Shown here in pieces: positions 59,246 to 64,000 of a DNA stretch of 64,000 nucleotides. The notes under the pieces were generated by a model, which saw only the letters and a list, made by a program, of their open reading frames with translations, did not search any database and was not told the origin of the DNA. Position 1 is the first letter of the stretch. Each line of letters starts with the position of its first letter. The stretch comes from Blastococcus litoris (lineage in GTDB: Bacteria; Actinomycetota; Actinomycetes; Mycobacteriales; Geodermatophilaceae): contig NZ_QCZF01000009.1 in NCBI RefSeq assembly GCF_003075095.1, positions 124,001 through 188,000 of the forward strand, given 5' to 3'. Position numbers and translations under genes: made by a program.

Positions 59246-59743
59246 ATGGGCTGGCTCCCCGAGGACTTCGCGCACCCGCTGCGCGTCGAGCTGCCGACCG
59301 GGCACCACCTGCGTCCCATCCGCGCCGACGACGTGGACATCGACTTCCCGGCCGTCATGGGCTCGCGCGAGCGGCTCTGGGGCATCTACGGCGAGGCGTG
59401 GGGCTGGCCGCCGGCGACGATGACGCCCGACGAGGACCGCGACGACCTCGCCCGGCACGAGCGCGAGATCGAGGCGCACGAGAGCTTCAACTACGCCCTC
59501 CTCGACGAGGCCGAGAGCGAGCTGCTCGGCTGCGTCTACGTCGACCCGCCCGAGAAGGACGGCGACGCCGACGCCGAGGTGTCCTGGTGGGTGGTCGACA
59601 GGCTCGTGGGCAGCGAGGTCGAGCGGGCGCTCGACGCGTTCGTGCCCGCGTGGCTGGCGGGGGAGTGGCCGCTGCGCCGTCCCCGCTACGTCGGGCGCGA
59701 CCTCTCCTGGGCGGAGTGGATCGCCCTGCCCGACCGGGACTGA
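59246..59743 (+). CDS. GNAT-like N-acetyltransferase
   Basis: 165 residues. RVELPTGHHLRPIRADDVDIDFPAVMGSRERLWGIYG and FNYALLDEAESELLGCVYVDPPEKDGDADAEVSWWVVD resemble the first half of a GNAT fold, but the acetyl-CoA pyrophosphate loop (R/Q-x-x-G-x-G/A) is not evident; the second half is short. It may be a degenerate or non-catalytic member. The ATG at 59246 starts one base after the rsmB stop. A perfect inverted repeat follows it. Confidence 0.6.
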   Translation: MGWLPEDFAHPLRVELPTGHHLRPIRADDVDIDFPAVMGSRERLWGIYGEAWGWPPATMTPDEDRDDLARHEREIEAHESFNYALLDEAESELLGCVYVDPPEKDGDADAEVSWWVVDRLVGSEVERALDAFVPAWLAGEWPLRRPRYVGRDLSWAEWIALPDRD

Positions 59744-59761: not shown

Positions 59762-59777
59762 CTCCGCCGTGGCGGAG
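59762..59777. repeat. Inverted repeat CTCCGCC-GT-GGCGGAG
   Basis: A perfect seven-base inverted repeat with a two-base centre, 18 bases after the GNAT-like stop and 4 bases before the -35 of the next operon. It could be a short terminator or an operator; a two-base loop is too tight for a good RNA hairpin, which favours an operator. Confidence 0.5.
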
Positions 59778-59781
59778 TGCC

Positions 59782-59811
59782 TTGTCCGCCGCCCGCGGCG
59801 GTCCCCATACT
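59782..59811 (+). promoter_or_regulatory. Promoter of the DUF2589-like operon with an inverted repeat in its spacer
   Basis: TTGTCC (59782-59787) and CATACT (59806-59811) are 18 bases apart and form the best-spaced housekeeping-type promoter in the window. A second perfect inverted repeat, CCGCCGC-CC-GCGGCGG (59786-59801), occupies the space between them, a classic operator position. Confidence 0.6.
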
Positions 59812-59838
59812 CGCCGGCAGGCTCGTGGGGGAGGCACG

Positions 59839-60228
59839 ATGGCGAGCACCGGCCGGTCGTCGCGCGCGGTGGGTCGCCCGCGCCGCGAGCACCCTCCGGA
59901 CGCGCTGGCCGCCGCCACCGCGGTGTGGACGTCGGTGTCCGCCGGGCTGGAGTCGGCGCGCTATGCCGAGGCCGGCGCCGAGTACGCCAAGCTCAGCGCG
60001 CTGCTGATCCAGCAGCGGACGGCCCAGGGACTCGCCGGCGCGCCCCCGGACGAGCGGTGGACCGAGCTGTCGCGGGCCGCCCAGCGCGCGCTCGACCTCC
60101 TGGAGCCCCTGCTGGGCGCCGCCCGGCTGCTGGCGACGGCGCCGGCCCCGGTCCGCGCTCCCTCCCGCCGTCGCTCACCGTCCACCCCACCAGCACCCGC
60201 CCAGCGGACGGCGGGGAAGAGGTCCTGA
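59839..60228 (+). CDS. Uncharacterised helical protein, first gene of the DUF2589-like operon
   Basis: 129 residues, cytosolic by sequence. A basic head (GRSSRAVGRPRREHP), a helical core (about 24-100, AAATAVWTSVSAGLESARYAEAGAEYAKLSALLIQQR and RWTELSRAAQRALDLLEPLLGAARLLA) and a basic, proline-rich tail. No family was recognised. It has its own promoter, and its ATG at 59839 is preceded by GGGGGAGG six bases upstream. A 24-base gap with AAGGAG leads to the DUF2589 gene, so the four genes are probably one transcript. It may be a scaffold or nucleic-acid-binding partner, which is only a guess from its charge. Confidence 0.65.
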   Translation: MASTGRSSRAVGRPRREHPPDALAAATAVWTSVSAGLESARYAEAGAEYAKLSALLIQQRTAQGLAGAPPDERWTELSRAAQRALDLLEPLLGAARLLATAPAPVRAPSRRRSPSTPPAPAQRTAGKRS

Positions 60229-60252
60229 CCCCGAGCGCGAAGGAGCACCGTC

Positions 60253-60843
60253 ATGCCGATCAACATCGGGCAGGAGATGGCCCTGCCCATGGAGCAGATC
60301 ATCGGCGGCCCCCTGCAGGCGGTGGTCAAGGCCCAGGCGCTGGCGGCGTCCAGCACCGTCGACTTCATCCAGCAGGTGGGCCTGAACCCGGCTCCGGGCG
60401 GTGGCGGGGCGCAGACCGCGCGGACGGTGGACTTCTCCTTCCAGCGGCGGGTGCCGGCCCGCGAGGACGACGACGGCCCCAGCGACGTCCTCACCACGGA
60501 GACCGTCGCGCTCACCGTGCCCCTGCTGACCGTCGTCCCGGTGCCGTTCATCCGGGTCAAGGAGGCGACCGTCGACTTCGAGGCGCAGGTCAGCAGCAGC
60601 ACCCTGAACACCACCGACTCGACGTTCGGCATCAGCGCGGAGGCCTCGGGCGGCTTCTGGGGCGTGAAGTTCACCGTGAAGGCGAACTACACGCGCAACA
60701 CGAAGAGCTCCGACCAGGTCAACAGGTCCTCGACGCTCAAGGTGCACGTCTACGCCGTGCAGGACGAGATCCCGGCCGGTCTCGACCGCGTCCTCACGAT
60801 CCTGCAGACGGCGATCGACGACGGCGTGGACGCGCCCGCGTGA
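60253..60843 (+). CDS. DUF2589 domain protein
   Basis: 196 residues, no signal peptide or membrane helix. An N-terminal amphipathic helix (MEQIIGGPLQAVVKAQALAA, about 13-42, ending FIQQVGL) leads into beta-strand-rich sequence (TVDFSFQRR; ETVALTVPLLTVVPVPFIRVKEATVDFEAQV), a glycine/serine loop, then KFTVKANYTRNTKSSDQ and STLKVHVYAVQDEIPAGLDRVLTILQ. This order is that of DUF2589, a family without known function. The AAGGAG seven bases upstream fixes the ATG. It overlaps the next gene by GTGA. Confidence 0.8.
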   Translation: MPINIGQEMALPMEQIIGGPLQAVVKAQALAASSTVDFIQQVGLNPAPGGGGAQTARTVDFSFQRRVPAREDDDGPSDVLTTETVALTVPLLTVVPVPFIRVKEATVDFEAQVSSSTLNTTDSTFGISAEASGGFWGVKFTVKANYTRNTKSSDQVNRSSTLKVHVYAVQDEIPAGLDRVLTILQTAIDDGVDAPA

Positions 60844-61523
60844 GCGTCGAGTTCGGCGATGCGGTGTCGGCGCTGGCGTCCTCGCTGGTCGCCGCGCGCC
60901 GTGCCCTGGACGCGGCCACCGCCGAGCTGTCGGCTGCCTACGCGGCCGACGAGCGGCTGCGCTCGCTGCCCGTGCCGGCCTTCGCGCTGGCCGAGGCGCA
61001 CTTCGACGTCCCGTACGTGGTCGACTCCGTGGAGGAGGTCGGCCCGCCGCGGCTGGAGCTGCCGCGACGGCCGGTCGTCGCCATCGGCGAGCGGGAGATG
61101 GCCTCGCTCCTGCGCGGCGTCGGCGCCGACGTCGGGGCGCGGCTGCAGCAGCTGGTCGACCAGCACGCCCGGCTGCGGGACCTCTACGACCGCGCCCGCG
61201 ACGACCCGGAGTCGATGCGCGACGAGCGGGTGCCCGAGCCCGTCCGGCTCTCCCGCGCGGACCTCGCCGCGCTGCGCGCGTCGGCCAGCGGCCCGGCTCG
61301 CGAGCAGCTCACCGCGGTCGTCCGCGACGTGCAGGAGCTGCAGAAGCTGCTGCAGGACGTCGCCCAGAAGAGCCGGCCGACGCAGCGGGTGTTCATCCGG
61401 CTGGATGCCGACTCGCTGTCCGGCGTCCCGCCGGAGCAGATCCAGCGCGCGTCCCTGACCTTCCGGGACGTGCCCAAGGCCATGGTCGACGTCGGCGGCG
61501 AGCCCGTCGTCGTCCCGGACTGA
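60840..61523 (+). CDS. Uncharacterised protein coupled to the DUF2589 gene
   Basis: 227 residues. A helical N-terminus (DAVSALASSLVAARRALDAATAEL) is followed by LPVPAFALAEAHFDVPYVV, which resembles the VPVPFIRVKEATVDFEAQV strand pair of the upstream DUF2589 protein. A long charged helical middle (about 85-178, QQLVDQHARLRDLYDRARDD) follows, then a final strand pair (RVFIRLDADSLSGVPPEQIQ). I infer a split DUF2589-like fold with a helical insertion; this is not certain. GTGA overlap with the gene before; 10 bases to the next. Confidence 0.6.
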   Translation: MSVEFGDAVSALASSLVAARRALDAATAELSAAYAADERLRSLPVPAFALAEAHFDVPYVVDSVEEVGPPRLELPRRPVVAIGEREMASLLRGVGADVGARLQQLVDQHARLRDLYDRARDDPESMRDERVPEPVRLSRADLAALRASASGPAREQLTAVVRDVQELQKLLQDVAQKSRPTQRVFIRLDADSLSGVPPEQIQRASLTFRDVPKAMVDVGGEPVVVPD

Positions 61524-61533
61524 GGGGGACGCC

Positions 61534-62136
61534 GTGGCCGAACCGGTGAGCGGGACCGCGCGGCTCGTCGAGGACTACCTCGGCTCGACGCTCGGGTCGT
61601 TGGTCAAGGCGCAGGGGCTCCTGTCGAGCCAGCTGGCCGAGTTCGTCGAGCGCGTCGGCTTCGAGCCGGCCGAGGACGACGACGCCCCGCTGCGGGCGCG
61701 CACCTTCAGCTTCGCCTTCGAGCGCACCGAGGTGGACGGCGAGGAGTTCGTGACCAGGCGGGTCACCGCCTCGCTGCCGCTGCTCAGCATCGTCAGCCTG
61801 CCGTCGCTGGCGATCGACGCGGCCGACGTCCAGATGGACCTGCGCATCGTGGCGACCGAGGCACCGCCCGACCCGCCCGAGCCGGAACCGCGGCCGCCGG
61901 GCCGGCCGCCCGGCGGACCGCTGGTCCCGCCGGTGCGGCCGCCCCTGCGGATGTGGGCGATCCCGGTGCGGCCGGCGCCCCTGCCGCTCCCCGGTCGCCC
62001 GGCGGCACCCGACCCGGCGACCGTCGGCAGCATCCGCGTCTCGGTGACCCTGCGCCGGCTCGACCTGCCCCTCGGGCTGGAGCGGGTCGAGCGCCTGCTG
62101 AACGAGGGCTACCGGGAGGAGATCGACGAGGCCTGA
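61534..62136 (+). CDS. Second DUF2589-like protein with a proline-rich insert
   Basis: 200 residues. It parallels the 60253 protein: YLGSTLGSLVKAQGLLSSQL and FVERVGF match its helix, then TFSFAFERT, RRVTASLPLLSIVSLPSLAI and DAADVQMDLRIV match its strands, and IRVSVTLRRLDLPLGLERVERLLNEG its end. In place of the glycine/serine loop there is a proline/arginine-rich linker (about 110-160). The two are therefore paralogues of different detail, not copies. GTG start with GAGGGGG upstream. Its TGA and the stop of the opposite aldehyde dehydrogenase share the palindrome TGAGCTCA. Confidence 0.7.
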   Translation: MAEPVSGTARLVEDYLGSTLGSLVKAQGLLSSQLAEFVERVGFEPAEDDDAPLRARTFSFAFERTEVDGEEFVTRRVTASLPLLSIVSLPSLAIDAADVQMDLRIVATEAPPDPPEPEPRPPGRPPGGPLVPPVRPPLRMWAIPVRPAPLPLPGRPAAPDPATVGSIRVSVTLRRLDLPLGLERVERLLNEGYREEIDEA

Positions 62137-62138
62137 GC

Positions 62139-63611
62139 TCAGAAGGGGAACGCCCGCTTCGTGTGCTGGACGCTCACCCAGTGGTCGGTGGTGAACTCCT
62201 CGATCGCCCACTCCCCGCCGAAGCGGCCCAGGCCCGACTCCTTCTCGCCCCCGAACGCGGTGTTGTTCTCGTCGTTGAGCGGCGAGTCGTTGACGTGGGT
62301 CATGCCGGCCTCGACCCGCAGCGCGAAGTCGACGCCGCGCGCGACGTCCCGGGTGAAGACGGCGCTGGACAGGCCGTACTCGGTGTCGTTGGCGATGGCC
62401 AGGGCGTCGTCCTCGTCGCGGGCGCGGATGATCGTCGCGACCGGGCCGAAGACCTCCTGCCGCGCGGTCGCGACGTCGTTGGTGCCGAGCAGCACGTGCG
62501 GGGGCAGCACCGAGCCGATGGGGCCGGTCGGGTCGCCGCCGAGGAGCTGCTCCGCGCCGTCCTCCCGCGCCTTCGCCACCTTCTCCTGGATCCCCTCCAG
62601 CTGCTTGTGGTTGATGATCGGGCCGATCACGGTGTCGCCCTCGCGCGGGTCGCCGGCCTTGAGCCCGCGCACCCGCTCGACGTAGCGCTCGACGAACTCG
62701 TCGTGCACGCCGGCGTCCACCACGATCCGGTTGGTGATCATGCAGACCTGGCCCTGGTGGAAGAACTTCCCGAACACCGCGGCGTCGACGGCGTACCCGA
62801 GGTCGGCGTCGTCCAGCACGACCAGGGGCCCGTTGCCGCCGAGCTCCAGCGAGAGCTTCTTCAGCCCGGCCTTCTCGGCGATGCCCTTGCCCACCGGCGT
62901 CGACCCGGTGAAGGAGACGACCCGCGGGGTGGGGTGCGACACGATCGCGTCGCCGATGTCGGAGCCGGAGCCGATCACGACCGACAGCAGCCCCTCGGGC
63001 AGCCCGGCCTCCTCGTACACCTTGGCCAGCAGCAGGCCGCCGGTGACCGGGGTGTCGCCGGCCGGCTTGAGGACGACGGCGTTGCCGAGGGCCAGCGCCG
63101 GGGCGACCGAGCGGTTGGACAGGTGCATCGGCACGTTCCACGGGCTGATCACCGCCACGACGCCGACCGGACGCCGGTAGACGCGGCTCTCCTTGCCCTC
63201 GATGTCGGCGGGGAGGATCCGGCCCTCGACGCGGTACGGATAGGACGACGCCTCGTGGAAGTCGCGGAGGGTGATGGCGTACTCGAACTCGGCCGCGGGG
63301 GCGGCGGCGCCGCTCTCGCGGATGTGCCAGTCGACGATCTCGTCCTTGCGCGCCTCCATGATCCGGGCGGCGCGGCGCATCACCTCGGCGCGCTCGGAGG
63401 GGAGCCGGGCGGCCCAGTCGCGCTGCGCCTCCTTCGCGCGGGCGTAGGCCTCGTCGAGGTCGTCGGCGTCGGCCAGCGGGATCTCGGTGAGCGTCTCGCC
63501 GGTGTAGGGGTCGGTGTCGGTGGCCGTCTTGCCGGAGCGTCCGGCGCGCCAGGTGCCGGCGATGGGCATGCGGTCGAAGCCGTCGTACAGGGTGGGGGTG
63601 GCGTCAGGCAT
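62139..63611 (-). CDS. NAD(P)-dependent aldehyde dehydrogenase
   Basis: 490 residues. [55 protein letters not shown], the general-base Glu in [13 protein letters not shown] and the nucleophile in [16 protein letters not shown] are all present. The wording around the cysteine (HQGQVCM) resembles benzaldehyde/vanillin-type dehydrogenases, so an aromatic aldehyde is plausible but unproven. ATG 63611 gives the usual N-terminus. It stands alone on the minus strand, its stop two bases from the DUF2589-like operon. Confidence 0.92.
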
Positions 63612-63694
63612 GCGTCGCCCCCTACCCGGCCGGGCGCAACGGACACCCGGCCCCGCCCTCGTCCACGCCGGGGAACGGCGGGAAGCCGCCCACC

Positions 63695-63700
63695 TAGACT
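63695..63700 (+). promoter_or_regulatory. -10 element TAGACT, leaderless promoter for rpe
   Basis: TAGACT ends 8 bases before the rpe GTG at 63709, repeating the leaderless geometry seen elsewhere. It lies in the 97-base divergent gap with the aldehyde dehydrogenase gene. Confidence 0.55.
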
Positions 63701-63708
63701 CGGCGGAC

Positions 63709-64000
63709 GTGTCCCGGGAACCGTTGATCGCCCCCAGCCTCCTGTCGGCGGACTTCGCGCGCCTCGGCGAGGAGGCACAGCGGGTCGCCGACGCCGACTG
63801 GCTGCACTTCGACGTGATGGACGCGCACTTCGTGCCGAACCTGACCTTCGGCCTCCCGGTGATGGCGGCGCTGCAGAAGGTCAGCCCCGTGCCGCTGGAC
63901 TGCCACCTCATGATCGAGGACCCCGGACGCTGGGCGCCGGGCTACGCCGAGGCCGGGGCGCGCAACGTCACCATCCACGCCGAGGCGACCGCCGACCCCC
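63709..64000 (+). CDS. rpe: Ribulose-phosphate 3-epimerase (3' truncated)
   Basis: Only the first 97 residues are in the window. [18 protein letters not shown], the metal-binding [18 protein letters not shown] and [13 protein letters not shown] are diagnostic of this TIM-barrel enzyme of the pentose phosphate and Calvin pathways. It begins at a GTG directly after a leaderless-type promoter, and presumably heads the next operon; rsmB followed by rpe is a common actinobacterial order, here interrupted by about 4.5 kb of accessory genes. Confidence 0.93.

Follow-up and report, generated by a model that had tools for sequence, protein, structure and literature searches.

A four-gene module with two DUF2589 proteins in Blastococcus litoris, and the synteny of its relatives with endolysins in phages and Bacteroidota

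The stretch analysed here (the window) comprises 64,000 nucleotides of Blastococcus litoris contig NZ_QCZF01000009.1 (positions 124,001 to 188,000), and the element under study is a run of four co-directional genes, P1 to P4, on its plus strand at 59839-62136. Features were taken from a program-made list of open reading frames (ORFs), and the four proteins were searched against the Pfam and NCBIfam profiles. P1 (59839-60228, 129 amino acids), P2 (60253-60843, 196 amino acids), P3 (60840-61523, 227 amino acids, GTG start) and P4 (61534-62136, 200 amino acids, GTG start) are tightly packed, with intergenic distances of 24, -4 and 10 bp, P2 and P3 overlapping by 4 bp. The same four ORF sizes had been given for an operon in a first-pass annotation made from the sequence alone. 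P2 and P4 belong to DUF2589 (PF11655), a Pfam family whose name gives no function. Relatives of these two proteins lie beside genes of one endolysin family in many viral contigs, from uncultivated phages, and in some Bacteroidota.

P2 covers the PF11655 model from end to end (positions 1-153 of 154; 115.3 bits against a cut-off of 23; E 4.3e-33). P4 matches only positions 4-95 of the 154 (46.9 bits, E 4.9e-12), its domain being interrupted by a proline-rich insert (about residues 111-161; 61864-62016) between two profile segments at residues 12-109 and 166-190; the C-terminal segment was recovered separately by a profile built in this analysis. Where P4 has the insert, P2 has a Ser/Thr/Gly-rich stretch of alternating polarity (residues 119-157; 60607-60723). 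The Pfam search therefore bears out the earlier proposal that both are DUF2589 relatives. P1 and P3 have no Pfam match above cut-off, and NCBIfam gave nothing above cut-off for any of the four. By hydropathy, none has a signal peptide or a membrane helix (every 19-residue window stays at or below 1.81 on the Kyte-Doolittle scale), in agreement with their first description as cytosolic proteins. A scan with the sigma-70 consensus, which says little for a high-GC actinobacterium, found no promoter for the operon, to which the first-pass annotation had given one of its own.

A second genome of the genus, G029, has all four reading frames uninterrupted. Four-fold degenerate sites of P1 to P4 differ by 34-44% between the two genomes, while the changes at first and second codon positions amount to 0.5% in P2, 4% in P4, 13% in P3 and 17% in P1, compared with 7% in each of two flanking genes, rsmB and a gene for a GNAT-like acetyltransferase. 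The high divergence at four-fold sites against the low divergence at first and second positions indicates that all four genes are coding and, judged from this comparison, under purifying selection. P2 is the most constrained of the six genes compared, with 99% amino acid identity at 37% four-fold divergence.

The gene order around the module is rsmB, the GNAT gene, P1 to P4, an aldehyde dehydrogenase gene on the minus strand, and rpe. The names of rsmB, the dehydrogenase and rpe were assigned by eye, and among the flanking genes the Pfam scan covered the GNAT gene (59246-59743, plus strand, 165 amino acids; PF13302, 26 bits against a cut-off of 25.4). This gene is a native neighbour outside the insertion, as it is present in two relatives without DUF2589, G028 and G031. 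In G028 about 110 bp separate the alignments of the GNAT gene and rpe, and in G031 about 1.3 kb. Since these relatives have the site without the operon, the four genes were inserted between GNAT and rpe. The dehydrogenase ORF (62139-63911, minus strand) is convergent with P4, with its stop at 62139; it is absent from the corresponding place in G029, where rpe directly follows P4. The start of rpe (63703-64000, plus strand, start position approximate) was placed by tblastn with the G029 protein, and because the dehydrogenase ORF as listed overlaps it, the true start of the dehydrogenase gene should lie further in. An insertion between rsmB and rpe, as first annotated, was thus roughly right, with the GNAT and dehydrogenase genes also intervening.

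Among 16 genomes of the genus, two have DUF2589; for the family the count is 2 of 112, and samples of the order, the class and the phylum gave 2 of 298, 2 of 394 and 1 of 396, with the query genome included in every count. The matches in the order and class samples are Amycolatopsis and Jiangella. The block is accordingly an accessory insertion, as had been suspected. One possible account is that DUF2589 proteins form a cytosolic scaffold or other assembly with a role in cell physiology, beside which the neighbouring genes are incidental. The 99% identity of P2 fits the conserved core of such an assembly, and the window copy, G029 and a Pirellulaceae locus described below have no effector or lysin beside the four genes. 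This account is nevertheless held to be unlikely, as the patchy presence is at odds with a housekeeping role and as the linkage to one endolysin family recurs, differently arranged, in phages and Bacteroidota.

A scan of one genome per species yielded 57 loci, and a set of 60 loci was compiled for comparison (the window, L005, L006, L007, L012, L013 and L015-L071, minus the duplicates L018, L038 and L046). In this partly hand-picked sample, ORFs were chosen by a crude script and grouped with blastp. Of the 60 loci, 58 contain two or more members of the DUF2589 cluster, the exceptions being L013 and L064 with one each, and 158 of the 161 ORFs in the cluster match the DUF2589 profile. A typical locus has a longer form, A, resembling P2, and a shorter form, B, resembling P4. 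The order P1-P2-P3-P4 of the window is preserved in L015, from a second genome of the genus, and in L016, a metagenome-assembled genome (MAG) of Pirellulaceae, where P2 is 66% identical; P4 pairs with the fourth gene of L016 in the tree (100/98). In L019, P2, P3 and P4 are followed by a 201-amino-acid protein that is found at E 5e-4 by a hidden Markov model of P1 and its counterparts in L015 and L016. The linkage of all four genes, for which the first-pass annotation had proposed a neighbourhood survey, therefore holds in these loci, with P1 moved to the end in L019.

Several of these loci have peculiarities of their own. The record of L015 (SPQJ01000066.1) is titled UNVERIFIED_ORG Bacillus sp. 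AZ43, which looks wrong, as its genes are the same as those of G029, a genome placed in the genus of B. litoris. On a Streptomyces plasmid (L005, NZ_CP027025.1, 5914-7753), form A is apparently split into ORFs of 120 and 58 amino acids, with form B downstream. In two further Streptomyces loci, L020 and L023, the C-terminus of form B is extended by a long segment, and between A and B lies a shorter protein that ranks as P3-like only at E 0.31 and 0.058.

Homologues of P3 adjoin DUF2589 genes at the corresponding place in other phyla, in seven Bacteroidales loci, and in Jiangella. With a profile of the seven Bacteroidales proteins only, the L019 protein scores 1.1e-6; next among 4253 ORFs, seeds aside, come P3 of the window (0.14), of L015 (0.31) and of Jiangella (0.55), and form B ORFs follow from 0.67, below the P3 genes. 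In the reverse direction, a P3 profile built on the window, L015 and L016 recovers the Bacteroidales genes with one exception, six of the seven scoring 2e-5 to 0.026. These values are individually weak, and it is the ranking of the sequences that singles out genes at the right place. Among 388 genomes of the class (up to six candidates scored per genome), the P3 profile matches only two, both with DUF2589; since both contribute rows to the profile, only its absence elsewhere is informative.

Besides P3, two other partners accompany A and B: a protein of about 93 amino acids (22 loci) and a 72-amino-acid zinc ribbon (22 loci; Zn_ribbon_3 just above cut-off). In a tree of form A (57 rows, some B rows included), the P3 loci occupy one half (85/96, drawn open), and the loci with the ~93-amino-acid partner fall in the other half together with the viral rows. 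A starred clade in this other half (100/99) consists mostly of zinc-ribbon loci. The type of partner thus largely follows the tree of A; the split is not absolute, as 7 of the 22 zinc-ribbon loci are Bacteroidales loci that also have P3. The tree spans Actinomycetota, Bacteroidota, Pseudomonadota, Bacillota, Thermodesulfobacteriota, Planctomycetota, Verrucomicrobiota, Spirochaetota and Chlorobiota.

The predicted structure of P2 (45 sequences; mean predicted local distance difference test score, pLDDT, 73; predicted template modelling score, pTM, 0.57) has helices at residues 13-43 and 175-190 and strands at 58-68, 80-90, 100-118 and 153-170; the model leaves the alternating stretch unresolved, with pLDDT below 50 at residues 123-154. 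That of P3 (12 sequences; mean pLDDT 85.7, pTM 0.55) has a helix at 5-36 and a strand at 52-67, then helices within 84-177, and C-terminal strands at 181-187 and 202-209. Both models start with a helix and then a strand, and hhalign aligns P3 with DUF2589 collinearly (probability 7.5%, P 0.0046). A search of P3 against PF11655 listed no match up to E 10. The earlier suggestion that P3 shares the strand parts of DUF2589, with a long helical insertion, fits the common start and the collinear alignment; the match is weak, and P3 is at most a candidate paralogue of the DUF2589 proteins.

Comparison with solved structures gave best Foldseek E values of 0.65 (P2 model) and 0.088 (P3 model) against PDB, and best VIA Z scores of 4.0 for P2 (72 residues, root-mean-square deviation 5.3) and 5.9 for P3 (102 residues, deviation 3.6, helical middle only). 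Sequence searches against solved structures with P2, one neighbour and the endolysin of a viral locus (L080, below) found no relative. In BFVD, the sole strong match of the P2 model is A0A516MP19 (E 7.7e-12, 30% identity), an unnamed, DUF2589-like viral protein. Recurrent weak PDB matches of P2 to FliF, secretin and pore-toxin entries, weak BFVD matches of P2 to phage collar proteins and weak matches of P3 to efflux adaptor proteins are not significant and were not used. The polarity of the alternating stretch exceeds that of shuffled sequences (z 2.2 for P2; mean z 1.3 over 45 sequences). A membrane-inserting beta-hairpin in form A was considered on this ground, and is retained as no more than an idea, since any amphipathic beta-sheet would alternate in the same way.

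Viral relatives were collected from IMG/VR in two scans. The first gave 56 loci encoding form A; in the second, at least 348 stretches encode a relative, of which the best 80 were kept, 69 of them new. Both B and A were found in 47 first-scan contigs; the spacing is exactly 9 bp in 28 of these, and others have inserted genes between the two. An endolysin family (blastp cluster 4 of the 60-locus set; PHROG 33083, 'endolysin', also PHROG 3000) is present in 38 of the 56 first-scan contigs, 0-1.9 kb from A, on the opposite strand in 37 and directly behind A in one. Of the new second-scan loci (from the best 80 of at least 348), 68 have an intact A ORF, and 50 of these carry the family too, 24 of them on the same strand and three of those 24 adjacent. 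The two sets share contigs and contain many close relatives, and so represent few independent events. In Bacteroidota the same family lies upstream of A in nine loci, as the immediate neighbour in all but L037, where it is one gene away. Among the viral loci, at least L080 and L088 belong to phages, to judge from a RecT gene in the former and a portal-like gene in the latter.

In the phage contig L087, a 109-amino-acid gene (PHROG 2429, E 2.7e-4; hydrophobic N-terminus by eye) is followed by B, overlapping by 4 bp, by A 9 bp further on, and by an endolysin with a PG_binding_1 domain (E 4.7e-20) that overlaps A by 1 bp. The label 'late operon' for L087 rests on the endolysin and on a reading by eye. 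Profiles of P3, the zinc ribbon and the ~93-amino-acid protein find only L122 among the first-scan viral ORFs; many viral contigs thus have A and B without the three bacterial partner families, which argues that the pair itself should have a function. Two viral scans, each with a single bacterial protein, found no relatives; among isolated-phage records there was none with P2, and one unannotated 4-kb record with the L080 protein. In L079, L084, L101, L102 and L125 (and L177), the genes between B and A, at least two of them apparently unrelated, end in a similar motif, approximately D-[EQ]-T-L-M-E-N-M-R-x-K. Among the 4831 first-scan ORFs there were five matches to it, all of them 10 bp from a DUF2589 gene. 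The motif may be a tag, or no more than an in-frame reading of a ribosome-binding site.

These viral loci could also be understood if A and B were structural proteins of a particle, forming part of the phage virion and domesticated in bacteria, which carry or dock the neighbouring enzymes for delivery to other cells. In L087 and related contigs, A and B lie beside the endolysin and small beta-rich genes that look decoration-like by eye, the portal-like gene of L088 is within 8 kb, and one bacterial DUF2589 protein is fused to a DUF6734-like domain (see below). The C58 protease, WHH nuclease, patatin and M35 protease found near bacterial cores resemble injected effectors. Set against this, the surroundings of the bacterial loci revealed no recognisable tail, sheath or baseplate gene, for which no systematic search was made, and a set of two to four small proteins seems small for a particle. 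PHROGs had nothing below E 0.15 for P1 to P4 and no significant match for A and B of L080, and virion proteins of this kind are considered unlikely.

To survey the enzymes near bacterial loci, 40 neighbourhood proteins were scanned with Pfam, the first 30 picked after their sequences had been read and 10 added later. Ten belong to protease, nuclease, phospholipase or wall-hydrolase families above cut-off: a muramidase (L007, about 2 kb away), C58 proteases (L012, L041), a matrixin/astacin (L018), a zincin (L019), a WHH/colicin nuclease (L021), a patatin and an amidase (L026), a GH108 protein (L043) and an M35 protease (L052). In L043, a gap of 17 bp separates the GH108 endolysin gene from the first DUF2589 gene downstream of it. 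The remainder are a jacalin lectin (L044), a DUF2589 protein (L030), four others (metallo-beta-lactamase, Mor, UPF0158, EamA) and 24 without a match above cut-off. Nine of the ten enzymes have no signal-peptide-like N-terminus, the start of the L012 protein being unsure; the L019 zincin is borderline. The C-terminal domain of the L030 protein is DUF6734-like (E 0.014), whereas in L043 DUF6734 is encoded by a gene of its own, of the same cluster (3.8e-17). Ten far genes, taken from a scripted list of 26, include none of these enzyme families; two are concerned with DNA modification (a Type ISP specificity domain and a D12 methyltransferase). The C58 (YopT-type) cysteine protease domains occur near DUF2589 in two phyla, in L012 (Amycolatopsis) and L041 (a Bacteroidetes MAG), and a gene in L036 (Amycolatopsis) is linked to C58 only through the blastp cluster of the L012 protein.

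The variable cytosolic enzymes near the core would also fit an intracellular conflict module, for defence or abortive infection, in which A, B and a partner sense infection and release or activate the enzyme as effector. The sporadic distribution (2/112, 2/298, 2/394 and 1/396 genomes, query included) and the accessory insertion fit such a module, as does the presence of the pair in phages. PADLOC gave no match up to E 0.01 for any of ten proteins (P1 to P4 and six from related loci), no NTPase or nucleotide cyclase was recognised in the core, and endolysins and wall hydrolases would be odd as cytosolic effectors. A conflict role is regarded as quite improbable.

The preferred explanation, tentative and given a probability of about 0.3, is that the DUF2589 module is a hetero-oligomer that acts on the cell envelope and works together with enzymes lacking signal peptides. 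A (P2) and B (P4) would assemble with P3 and P1, the assembly would permeabilise or cross the envelope so that signal-less enzymes reach the wall or leave the cell, and the module would act like part of a phage lysis cassette or of a lysis-type release system. The most constant neighbours of the family are an endolysin, in phages and Bacteroidota, or other hydrolases without signal peptide. The link to a single endolysin family, arranged in two ways in viruses and in a third way in Bacteroidota, suggests action at the envelope, and in L087, L043 and L048 a hydrolase without signal peptide lies beside the DUF2589 relatives. As no such enzyme is found beside the window module, its cargo, if any, would be encoded elsewhere. 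A broader proposal, possible but doubtful, is that A and B with interchangeable partners (P3, the ~93-amino-acid protein or the zinc ribbon) make up an undescribed envelope machine of phages and many bacterial phyla, which phages would pair with an endolysin and which bacteria would have domesticated for the delivery or release of an exchangeable set of enzymes without signal peptides.

A number of observations weigh against envelope action. P1 to P4 have no membrane helix, so that none is a classical holin, and the best PDB matches of the P2 and P3 models are weak. The endolysin family is absent from the other loci of the 60-locus set, its profile finding only the nine seeds; in two large virus contigs, L118 and L123, the 8 kb or so around A lack it, and among the viral loci 18 of the 56 and 18 of the 68 (the second set from the best 80 of at least 348) are without it, partly owing to contig ends. 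PHROGs gives no function for the five genes upstream of the 109-amino-acid gene of L087. The difference between 10 of 40 near and 0 of 10 far genes is not significant (one-sided Fisher test, about 0.08, by hand), and the enzyme fraction is biased upward, since 30 of the 40 were hand-picked and the later ten gave none. No hydrolase is seen beside the operon in the window, G029 or L016. Finally, archaea have no murein. DUF2589-related genes are present in Archaeoglobus, where they are up-regulated on lactate, according to PMC3949148.

The nearest known systems are phage lysis cassettes and the Type 10 secretion system, the latter described in PMC13284979 as a holin with a peptidoglycan hydrolase. 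As in these, A and B of the DUF2589 relatives adjoin an endolysin without signal peptide, or in L043 a GH108-type hydrolase, and the other enzymes near the core are possible cargo. In contrast to these systems, P1 to P4 include no membrane-helix holin and the window copy has no adjacent hydrolase, which on sequence grounds places the module outside the holin-endolysin class. Polymorphic toxin and injected-effector loci likewise have diverse enzyme domains near a constant core, but no secretion machine was recognised beside the DUF2589 loci.

In the open full-text literature, which leaves subscription papers and preprints outside, DUF2589 was found named only in passing and without a function (in one sentence of PMC3949148), PF11655 is not mentioned in the texts searched, and neither search turned up an account of A and B as a pair, of the partner proteins or of the endolysin link. 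Synteny now connects DUF2589, a family without assigned function, with endolysins in phages and in Bacteroidota, and with several hydrolases in other bacteria. The family thereby becomes open to direct tests for lysis, pore formation or presence in virions, and a part in lysing cells or releasing proteins can be examined directly.

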